Positions 21,664-31,720 of a DNA stretch of 32,748 bases are shown here, in pieces. Made by a program: the position numbers and the translations under genes. The notes below the pieces were generated by a model. The model saw nothing but the letters and a program-made list of their open reading frames with translations. It had not been told where the DNA came from and ran no database searches. The stretch is from an uncultured Woeseiaceae bacterium (GTDB taxonomy: Bacteria > Pseudomonadota > Gammaproteobacteria > Steroidobacterales > Woeseiaceae): NCBI GenBank assembly GCA_905480255.1, contig CAJQPR010000144.1, positions 1 to 32,748 on the forward strand, given 5' to 3'. Numbering within the stretch: the first letter of the stretch is position 1; every line of letters begins with the position of its first letter.

Positions 21664-23592
21664 CTATTCCGATTTTTTCTGCTCGTCGTCGCCGTCGACT
21701 TCTTCAAATTCCGCGTCAACAACATCGTCGCCGCCAGCCTCGGCCTCTGCACTGCCTTCACCAGCGTCAGCAGCCTGCTCAGCGTAGAGCTTTTGCGCAA
21801 CCGCGGCAGAAGCCTCACCTAATGCTGCAGTCTTCGCCTCGATTGTTTCCTTGTCTCCATCATCGAGTACGGCCTTCAGATCCGATACTGCGTTTTCAAC
21901 CGCGAGACGTTCTTCGCCGCTGACTTTGTCGCCAGCTTCACTGAGCGTCTTCTCGGCTGCATGAATCAGACCATCAGCCTGGTTACGTGCGTCAACCTGC
22001 TCACGGAACTTCTTGTCTTCCTCGGCGTGACTTTCTGCCGCGGCAACCATTTCGTCCACCTCATCATCGGACAATCCACTGGATGCCTTGATGACGATGT
22101 TCTGGCTTTTTCCAGTCGCTTTGTCTTTCGCAGACACATTCAAAATCCCGTTTGCATCGATATCAAACTGAACTTCAATCTGCGGCAGGCCTCTTGGCGA
22201 CGGCGGAATATCAGCCAGGTCAAATCGACCCAGGGATTTGTTGTCTTGCGAACGTTCTCGCTCACCCTGAAGAACATGGATGGTCACTGCTGTTTGATTG
22301 TCATCGGCCGTAGAAAATACCTGTGTCTCATTTGCGGGGATGGTCGTGTTCTTGCCGATCAGCTTGGTCATCACGCCGCCAAGCGTCTCAATTCCCAGGG
22401 ACAACGGCGTCACGTCAAGCAACAATACATCTTTTACGTCGCCTGCCAGCACGCCACCTTGAATGGCTGCACCCATGGCCACTGCCTCGTCAGGATTGAC
22501 ATCCCGGCGTGGTTCTTTACCGAAGAAATCCTGTACTTCCTCCGCAACCTTCGGCATGCGCGTCTGGCCGCCAACAAGAATGACGTCGTCGATTTCATTG
22601 ACCTTCAGACCGGCGTCAGTCAACGCGATTTTACACGGTGCAATAGTGCGACTGACAAGCTCGTCAACCAGTGATTCGAGCTTGGCTCGCGTCAGCTTTA
22701 TATTGAGATGTTTAGGGCCGGTGGAATCAGCAGTAATGTAGGGAAGATTTACTTCCGTCTGTTGCTGCGTCGACAATTCAATTTTGGATTTCTCGGCAGC
22801 CTCTTTCAGGCGCTGCATTGCCAGCGGGTCGGCGGTAATGTCGACGCCGCTTTCTTTCTGAAATTCCGAGGTTAGATACTCGATAACCCGCATATCGAAG
22901 TCCTCACCACCGAGGAACGTGTCGCCATTGGTCGCCAGCACTTCGAACTGGTGCTCACCATCGACCTCAGCGATTTCGATAATTGAAATGTCGAACGTTC
23001 CGCCACCCAGATCAAATACTGCAATCTTGGCGTCGCCACGTTTCTTATCCATGCCGTAGGCAAGCGCTGCCGCCGTCGGCTCATTGATAATGCGCTTAAC
23101 GTCGAGACCCGCGATCTTACCGGCGTCTTTGGTCGCCTGGCGCTGCGAATCATTGAAATATGCGGGAACCGTTACAACGGCTTCGGAAACTTCGGCGCCC
23201 AGATAATCTTCTGCGGTCTTCTTCATCTTCATCAGAACGCGCGCAGAAATTTCCGGCGGTGCCATTGCCTTGCCATTTGCCTCAACCCAGGCATCGCCAT
23301 TGTCAGCCTTCACAATTTTGTAAGGCACCATGTTGATGTCGCGCTGAACAACGTCGTCTTCAAAGCGGCGCCCGATCAAACGCTTGACCGCATGCAAGGT
23401 GTTGCTCGGATTAGTGACAGCCTGACGTTTTGCCGACTGACCAACGAGGACCTCGCCATCTTTGCTGAATGCAACGATTGAGGGTGTGGTCCGGTCTCCT
23501 TCGCTGTTCTCGATCACTCGGGGTTTGCCCCCTTCCATGACCGCGACGCAGGAGTTCGTGGTACCAAGGTCGATACCAATAACTTTACCCAT
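21664..23592 (-). CDS. dnaK: Chaperone DnaK (Hsp70)
   Basis: DnaK is the ATP-driven cytoplasmic Hsp70. The 642-residue protein begins with the phosphate-binding [14 protein letters not shown] and has the conserved [12 protein letters not shown] and [13 protein letters not shown] motifs of the actin-like ATPase. The linker [19 protein letters not shown] is followed by the peptide-binding beta domain and a helical lid. The tail contains [10 protein letters not shown] and a short acidic/basic extension. A GGAGA ribosome site and its own sigma-32-type promoter precede it, so it can be induced separately from hrcA-grpE. Confidence 0.99.
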
Positions 23593-31046: not shown

Positions 31047-31408
31047 GGGGGCGAACTGGATTCGACGTGGGTCGCGAAACTCCGGGTGCATGCCGAGGGA
31101 CAGATCACCTCGTAAAACCAGCTGTAACACTTATAGTTGCCAACGACGACAACTACGCACTAGCTGCTTAAAAACCAACTTAGTGCCTTCTGCCCGGCTC
31201 GTGCTTGTGCGATCGGATCCCAGGAGTCATCTACACAAGACCGCGGCAAGGGCGTGTTCAGGGTCCGAACCGTTAAATCCTAACTGGACTGGTTTCAGGT
31301 TTTCCCTGCCCGTCGGGTAGCCTGCGACGAGATTAAAGACGGAATAAGCATGTAGACCCCGTAGCGGAGGACTTGCGGACGCGGGTTCGATACCCGCCGC
31401 CTCCACCA
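31047..31408 (+). ncRNA. ssrA: tmRNA (SsrA), one-piece
   Basis: Transfer-messenger RNA rescues ribosomes stalled on broken mRNAs and tags the unfinished protein. The 362-base gene begins GGGGGCGAACTGGATTCGAC, and its first seven bases pair with CGCCTCC near the 3' end, followed by discriminator A and an encoded CCA. The D-like region, TGCATGCCGAGG, the tag frame and the T arm GCGGG-TTCGATA-CCCGC are all in standard order. A terminator follows 10 bases later. It is linked to smpB. The sequence just downstream partly duplicates its 3' end. Confidence 0.98.
31139..31171 (+). other. tmRNA tag-peptide reading frame (ANDDNYALAA)
   Basis: Resume codon GCC (31139-31141) opens a ten-codon frame for ANDDNYALAA ending in TAA. 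It differs from the E. coli tag only by Asp for Glu at position 4. The terminal ALAA is the signal recognised by ClpXP and related proteases; FtsH, also encoded here, degrades some tagged proteins in E. coli. Confidence 0.95.
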
Positions 31409-31485
31409 ACAAACAAAGGTCACCGAAAGGTGGCCTTTTTGTTGTGGCGGGCAAGAGTTGAGTACCCGCGTAGCGGGTTCACATC
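31393..31485 (+). repeat. tmRNA-tail repeat, copy 1
   Basis: This copy spans the last 16 bases of tmRNA, the terminator, and a segment from GTTGTGGCGGG to GGTTCACATC. The same 93-94 bases recur at 31557, differing by three substitutions and one extra T. Two of the changes are in the A-rich spacer, and one turns a G-U pair of the terminator stem into a G-C pair. Confidence 0.93.
31416..31440 (+). terminator. Terminator of tmRNA (first copy)
   Basis: GGTCACC, a GAAA loop, GGTGGCC and five T form a classic rho-independent terminator starting 10 bases after the tmRNA CCA end. Confidence 0.92.
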
Positions 31486-31562
31486 TCGTCACGACGGACG
31501 AGATGGACGCGCCCAGCGCGCCCGCAGGGCGAGGGCCAGGGATGGCCCGAGTCTATCCCGCC
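31446..31562 (+). repeat. Stem-loop-rich element after tmRNA, long form
   Basis: GGCGGG (31446-31451) and CCCGCC (31557-31562) can pair and enclose four further hairpins: ACCCGC/GCGGGT (31464-31478), a perfect 9-bp CATCTCGTC/GACGAGATG (31482-31505), CGCCC/GGGCG (31519-31531) and GGGCCA/TGGCCC (31533-31548). Nearly every base lies in or near a stem. No protein gene is supported here. It may be a structured RNA or a small palindromic mobile repeat; I cannot decide which. Confidence 0.7.
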
Positions 31563-31650
31563 GCCTCCACCAATAAATAAAGGCCACCGAAAGGTGGCCT
31601 TTTTTGTTGTGGCGGGCAAGAGTTGAGTACCCGCGTAGCGGGTTCACATC
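31557..31650 (+). repeat. tmRNA-tail repeat, copy 2
   Basis: Second copy, 164 bases after the first. It begins with the CCCGCCGCCTCCACCA end of tmRNA without the body of the gene, then the terminator and the same trailing segment, and diverges after CACATC. A compact GGCGGG...CCCGCC element (31611-31661, 51 bases) follows its terminator, with the inner ACCCGC/GCGGGT hairpin but without the three extra hairpins of the long form. Confidence 0.93.
31580..31605 (+). terminator. Duplicated terminator (second copy)
   Basis: GGCCACC, GAAA, GGTGGCC and six T. The stem is now fully Watson-Crick and the T run one base longer than in the first copy, so it should be at least as strong. Confidence 0.9.
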
Positions 31651-31720
31651 CTGTTCCCGCCTGTAATCGGAGTGGGGACGCTGTCTACCGTCGGGAGTAT
31701 TGCAAAACCAACAGGGATTC

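Follow-up and report, generated by a model that had tools for sequence, protein, structure and literature searches.

Since 1978, tRNA-linked repeats (TLRs) have been on record as an oddity of Escherichia coli that lacks a firm function, and one of them is located in the widely used rrnB T1-T2 terminator. E. coli K-12 contains 22 TLRs at ten tRNA and rRNA loci (Rudd, 1999, cited in PMC8144298), and they are defined by final 18-19 bp that repeat, without mismatch, the 3' end of the RNA gene ahead of them (PMC8144298). The TLRs RrA, RrB, and RrF lie between T1 and T2 of rrnA, rrnB, and rrnD of E. coli, are produced by read-through of T1, are apparently processed by RNase E, and bind Hfq as well as CsrA. 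It has been proposed that they titrate CsrA in step with rRNA transcription, and the other E. coli TLRs are predicted to be CsrA non-binders (PMC8144298). An early starvation role of RtT has been withdrawn (PMC8144298). Relatives of RtT are expressed in Actinobacillus (PMC4986893) and in Thioalkalivibrio (PMC8092127), and RtT-like sequences have been reported inside BIMEs (PMC2965389). For CsrA the SELEX consensus is RUACARGGAUGU, and the repeats of CsrB present CAGGA(U/A/C)G in loops (PMC7652899).

The window, i.e., the whole stretch of 32,748 nucleotides that was analyzed here, is contig C144 of a 2.8-Mb MAG with a completeness of 78%. Its positions 31409-31602, which follow the tmRNA gene, very probably represent a TLR with ssrA as the host gene (Table 1). 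The order of the elements, namely, tmRNA tail, T1, a covarying hairpin cluster, tail copy, and T2, is the same as in RrA, RrB, and RrF, and the unit is likewise flanked by two terminators and has a spacing of about 150 bp. The identity of the tail copy with the tmRNA 3' end extends over 16 nt and one base beyond, so that the resulting 16-17 nt are slightly shorter than the 18-19 bp of the E. coli K-12 class. The host of RrA, RrB, and RrF is 5S rRNA, and they have been described for Enterobacterales only, while the host in the window is tmRNA. In addition, the rrnB unit has H1 and H4 hairpins with GGA loops, whereas the H1 loop of the window unit is devoid of GGA. Expression has been demonstrated for RrA, RrB, and RrF and is predicted for the window unit.

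RtT RNA (RF00391), which is encoded at tyrT/tyrV of E. coli, resembles the family of the window unit in its cognate tails, the period of 178 bp, an inverted tail, hairpins H1-H4, and GAGTAAT ahead of the tail. However, its host is tRNA-Tyr, and, in contrast to the window, its units lack an obvious strong terminator ahead of each. CsrA-titrating RNAs of the CsrB/RsmX type share CAGGA(U/A/C)G-like loop motifs with many units, but they are free-standing, unlike the window unit, which has one such loop and for which no homology is claimed. The terms ssrA and tmRNA are absent from the main text of PMC8144298, which mentions no ssrA-linked TLR; an earlier report elsewhere is possible. Papers about Woeseia, about repeats at tmRNA, and about fragments of tRNA were searched and offered nothing specific.

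Anatomy of the repeat behind the tmRNA gene

Positions 31393-31485, which comprise 16 nt of the tmRNA, the terminator, and 45 or more further nt, align with positions 31557-31650 with three substitutions and one inserted T (94 bp, 96% identity). This is far beyond chance expectation, and it confirms the coordinates as well as the substitution and indel counts that the initial annotation had given for a repeat 3' of the tmRNA. The start-to-start spacing is 164/165, and 148 bp lie between the CCA end at 31408 and the start of the tail copy at 31557. Taken together, the repeat consists of one full unit and one truncated unit. An assembly artefact, which had been named as an alternative, is unlikely, because unique sequence flanks the block within a contig of 32.7 kb, and because the genus mates L123, L030, and L153 have homologous blocks. 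The presence of these blocks also settles the objection that the repeat might be found in no relative.

Table 1. Features of the tmRNA locus and the downstream units in the window.
Feature	Positions	Strand	Basis or remark
tmRNA gene (ssrA), tag ANDDNYALAA	31047-31408	+	ARAGORN; Rfam RF00023 E=2.3e-93
Functional tmRNA 3' tail (CCCGCCGCCTCCACCA), donor copy	31393-31408	+	
Intrinsic terminator T1 of tmRNA	31415-31438	+	Terminator scoring
5' arm of the predicted closing stem (GUGGCGGG); begins the degenerate inverted tail copy; partner 31557-31564	31444-31451	+	Fold z=-4.74
Hairpin H0, ACCCGC-GTA-GCGGGT; 3' arm is a copy of the T-stem 5' strand	31464-31478	+	Fold
TLR/RtT-type hairpin cluster, 84 nt, between the T-stem halves (GGGTTC...TATCCC)	31476-31559	+	Covariance model R3
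Hairpin H1, CATCTCGTC-ACGACG-GACGAGATG	31482-31505	+	Fold; column pairs covary across the family
Hairpins H2/H3, GCGC-CCA-GCGC and GCCC-GCA-GGGC	31509-31530	+	Single-sequence fold gives other pairing here
Hairpin H4, GGGCC-AGGGAU-GGCCC	31533-31548	+	Fold; family covariation
CAGGGATG within H4, match to the CsrA core CARGGAUG	31537-31544	+	Consensus from PMC7652899
Displaced tmRNA tail copy, CCA at the end	31557-31572	+	Repeat alignment
Terminator T2; the - strand scores too	31579-31602	+	Terminator scoring
Truncated last unit, made up of a second post-terminator block and GCGGG-TTCACATCCTGTT-CCCGC; lacks hairpin cluster and tail	31603-31660	+	

In general, the units are composed of the tail, a terminator, in many cases an inverted tail, a copy of the T-stem, the hairpins H1-H4, and the tail copy. 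The predicted fold of the window unit (-71 kcal/mol, z=-4.74) contains a closing stem of inverted tail and tail copy, which surrounds H0, H1, H2/3, and H4. For the minus strand of the window unit the fold has z=-3.71. The plus-strand folds are stabler than the minus-strand folds, but the z-scores of both strands are nearly equal, and therefore folding energy was discarded as evidence for a strand preference and the counts of G-U versus A-C pairs and of GGA loops were used instead. An inverted tail was significant (p<0.01) at 40 of 91 tmRNA loci, whereas the control in direct orientation reached this level at 9 of 91. Among 18 arrays, 11 had the cognate inverted tail in first rank. The window's own inverted tail is degenerate and has rank 2 of 18.

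The hairpins of the units, with their GCGAAGC-like loops, brought a possible RAYT/REP or attC-like origin into consideration. Weak Rfam matches to rsmX, isrD, and tmRNA_permuted in the window were taken as chance or cross-hits. ARAGORN also called a tRNA-SeC gene at 22926-23016 on the minus strand of the window, which is probably false, because the sequence just downstream looks protein-coding (DnaK-like).

Homology of the hairpin cluster and its loop motifs

An alignment of 25 clusters (A1) was the basis of the covariance model R1, while R2 was built without E. coli and R3 without the window sequence. The calibration of the models was shortened, and thus all E-values are rough, including those of the sole match of R3 in the 32.7-kb window, i.e., the cluster at 31476-31559 (72.9 bits, E 6.8e-17), and of the matches of R2 to the E. 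coli tyrT/tyrV units (2e-6 to 9e-6 for tyrT). R1, for which rrnB was never in training, matched the rrnB T1-T2 unit with 37.9 bits; the alignment of R3 included rrnB, and its match to rrnB is therefore not independent. The parallel to rtT/tyrT that had been drawn in the initial annotation is borne out, and it has become stronger than a parallel, because the cluster models show homology to both the tyrT and the rrnB units.

The Rfam RtT model, which is independent of R1-R3, was applied to 97 genomes of the order and had matches in 15 (six above the cut-off), and among 14 control genomes it matched E. coli only. A tRNA gene (Ser, Gln, Lys, Arg) or, once, a tmRNA gene was present at 16 of the 20 retrieved loci, usually no more than tens of bases from the match. 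The tmRNA units of relatives scored 36-40 bits with this model, which has a gathering score of 45 bits. In the window it had no match at E<=1, and, with the gathering score not reached, the window unit is not filed as RtT.

In an alignment of 30 matches, 94.6% of the cells were paired, compared to 72.5% in shuffles, whereby part of this excess is built in, because the alignment was fitted to the model; sliding controls reached at most 53%. Two-sided changes amounted to 87 versus 28 in shuffles, and 13 of the 18 pairs have them. The covarying pairs contained 40 G-U versus 8 A-C combinations, or 18 versus 3 without helix 1, and such counts on a model-fitted alignment tilt somewhat toward G-U.

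The loop motifs of the hairpins are also strand-specific. In 83 non-redundant tmRNA units, GGA was found in 52 of 160 hairpin loops on the gene strand but in 6 of 160 on the opposite one; in shuffles the share was 15%. CA(N)GGAWG was present in 29 of the 83 units, versus one on the other strand and an expectation of 2.6. The CsrA-type motif occurred in 32 of 70 gamma/other units, in 2 of 23 beta units, and in none of 8 actinobacterial units, and some units have a full match to the CsrA consensus, e.g., L186 with GGUACAGGGAUGUACC. The window contains one exact match to the CsrA core, CAGGGAUG in the loop of H4, which is its sole hairpin with a CsrA-type loop. These motifs suggest that the units may bind CsrA. 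A csrA gene was not found in the source MAG, which is 78% complete; of 60 relatives, 46 have the gene, including six members of the same genus.

Distribution at tmRNA and tRNA genes

The order-level set comprised 102 tmRNA genes with at least 250 bp downstream, and copies of the 14-nt tail with up to two mismatches were recorded. The tail recurs downstream of 12 of these genes, window included, while the chance expectation is 0.01 at no more than one mismatch. All but one of the copies lie at +134 to +182, the window and the weak two-mismatch copy of L040 among them. The match of L012 (+299, two mismatches) is outside this band, probably arose at random, and was left out of the unit count. A similar layout with decayed tails was observed for L021, L025, L028, L030, L033, L082, and L153. 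In addition, about 85,000 species genomes were scanned for pairs of tmRNA tails at a distance of 131-191 bp; the scan is restricted to this range and thus silent on other spacings, which are covered by the order-level set. It yielded 104 stretches, about 90 of which were accepted as duplicated tails; some ten were discarded as random matches in other kinds of sequence. The loci that were kept belong to many gammaproteobacterial groups, Oxalobacteraceae, Gallionellaceae, Mariprofundus (Zetaproteobacteria), Actinomycetota, and others, although the taxon labels of MAGs may have errors. Some tmRNA arrays hold two or three equal units, namely, L160 (175 bp), L190 (162 bp), L200 (200 bp), L195 (165 bp), and L229 (189 bp). 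L164 (Sorangium cellulosum So0157-2) was rejected, since it represents chance pattern matches in a short-period repeat and no tmRNA locus.

The tRNA loci were sampled rather than surveyed genome-wide. In the source genome, cognate tail copies are located behind tRNA-Arg (+149), tRNA-Glu (+154), and tRNA-Thr (+223). The two units at tRNA-Arg share their first 133 nt except for one base, but they differ in H4, for which another, still-pairing stem has been substituted. In a relative with a single contig (4.06 Mb), one tRNA-Asn, two tRNA-Met, and one tRNA-Arg carry arrays with periods of 177-180 bp. The window-type hairpin cluster occupies the position of the T-loop in several tRNA tail units, and a cluster of the same type was also found in the anticodon loop (upstream of tRNA-Ser, G017) and in the D-loop (tRNA-Ser, G004) of 5' partial copies. 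Class D units (L290, L293, L304, L332, L010, L123) have an equal tail spacing and the TLR layout, but another insert (GATCAATCCGC...GCGGATTGGGTTC or AACTTGCGC...GCGCAAGTGG); they are devoid of the T-loop cluster and do not fit the cluster model. A genome-wide dispersed repeat was considered and rejected, as the pattern search yielded tRNA loci only, to which the model added two dispersed copies (L338, G000:C105:87645; L340, G000:C153:25199) without an ARAGORN tRNA nearby. The L338 copy sits inside another hairpin repeat.

Several further arrangements were noticed at tRNA genes. Upstream of the tRNA-Ser of G017 (L311), 152-bp units form an array, with the cluster in the anticodon loop of the 5' partial tRNA-Ser copies. 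At a tRNA-Gln gene (L346, G004), a very regular palindrome of tail, bidirectional terminator, and inverted tail is followed by a tandemly repeated hairpin cluster. Upstream of a tRNA-Met gene (L063, reverse complement), tandem repeats of about 76 bp consist of the tRNA 5' half with the D-arm region swapped for other sequence, which makes them a mirror image of the downstream units. Downstream of a tRNA-Pro gene at a contig end (L065), tandem units of about 165 bp are composed of a tRNA-Arg 5' part and inserted hairpins. Behind a tRNA-His gene (L267, G004), a long degenerate repeat run (GTGAGAATTGATCTTTAGTCGGCTGG...) is located 3' of the tail copy.

Alternative explanations, origin, and possible function

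The 3' ends of ssrA genes are common integration sites, and the copied part begins in the T-loop, as might be expected if an integrative element had left a scar at its attachment site; the initial annotation had likewise suggested a leftover of recombination there. However, the copy is at 134-182 bp in every order-level relative that has a convincing one, the terminator is part of the repeat, and units of this class are found after many tRNA genes, where the tails are cognate, the spacing is almost constant, and no island is present. Between the window copies (164-bp spacing) there is no integrase, island, or coding element that would identify them as attachment sites. The spacing and the cognate tails led us to reject the scar, which is very improbable. 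It is hardly credible that the units are kept as backup terminators behind highly transcribed RNA genes. T1 and T2 of the window and the second terminators of many units would agree with it, but several E. coli tyrT units do not each have an obvious strong terminator, and terminators alone need neither covarying loops nor tails. Tandem duplication, which the initial annotation had preferred to a simple attachment-site copy, might have come about through slippage or through unequal recombination of one tail with another, with the structure being incidental. It agrees with the 94 bp of 96% identity in the window, with the near-perfect tandem units of many arrays, and with the copy number of the tyrT-type unit, which 4680 of the 5426 E. 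coli genomes carry at 1-9 places each. As a full account it is nevertheless incomplete, since the window has one full and one truncated unit and an 84-nt family-specific cluster set in the T-loop. The shared hairpin cluster, the inverted tail, the covariation, and stacked units of different classes are left unexplained, and it is contradicted by inserts that are homologous among tRNA, rRNA, and tmRNA genes. Tandem duplication is therefore an improbable explanation of the whole; it did not give rise to the units, although it probably increases their number.

The cluster might also be a selfish palindromic element, i.e., a non-autonomous mobile element that enters the T-, anticodon-, and D-loops of tRNAs, with arrays and tails as by-products and an RNA devoid of a role for the host. 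Its presence in all three loops of partial tRNA copies, both up- and downstream, the two dispersed copies, the difference of close relatives by whole units, the en bloc swap of H4 between the two tRNA-Arg units, and the RtT-like sequences within BIMEs (PMC2965389) agree with this explanation. Yet nearly all copies in three genomes are within tRNA-derived sequence with little spread beyond, no mobilizing enzyme was identified, and neither the strand-specific CsrA-type loops nor the presence in so many E. coli genomes would be expected for pure junk. We regard such an element as unlikely.

We favor the interpretation that the window contains an ssrA-hosted TLR that was gained as a whole unit and gives rise to a read-through RNA able to bind CsrA, with a probability of roughly 0.55 for this statement in full. 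It is plausible that the window unit yields a small RNA, because its rrn relatives make one (PMC8144298). Read-through, processing, and CsrA binding are inferred from RrA, RrB, and RrF, and the structure and the motif are their only support in the window. Most ssrA transcripts would stop at T1, and read-through would lead to a precursor that could be cut to an RNA of roughly 130-165 nt, closed by the stem of inverted tail and tail copy and ending with the tmRNA-like CCA tail. The displaced tails have decayed in some relatives, and therefore the tail copy may be dispensable. CsrA binding to the H4 loop is a tentative step that is suggested by the loop sequence. If it takes place, the RNA would signal that ssrA is being transcribed and would act as a weak titrant of CsrA, in the way proposed for RrA, RrB, and RrF with respect to rRNA.

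With the same unit on ssrA, related units on many marine gammaproteobacterial tRNA genes, and repeated tails of the same layout in other phyla, what was an oddity has become a family open to comparative study. Because the CARGGAUG loops are strand-specific, it can be tested directly whether an RNA that accompanies tmRNA, tRNA, or rRNA tunes CsrA. Copies of tRNA or tmRNA 3' ends 130-210 bp downstream should not be taken as integration scars. It is conceivable, but rather doubtful, that TLRs are a widespread RNA family beyond enterics on tRNA, 5S, and tmRNA genes, many with CsrA-site hairpins that would couple CsrA activity to the output of translation-machinery genes, and that they spread via insertion into tRNA loops, rebuilding the 3' (or 5') end of the host.

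For the ssrA-hosted unit, the origin would have been that a complete unit was acquired, with the T-loop and tail as its anchor, which would leave the tmRNA intact and push the old tail downstream. Comparison of relatives indicates that whole units were either gained at the T-loop and tail or lost through recombination between tails. The genus mate L123 has an additional unit of another class between the tmRNA and a block that is identical to the first block of the window at 82 of 90 positions. L031 contains an additional unit ahead of one that is identical to the first unit of L082 at 144 of 151 positions.
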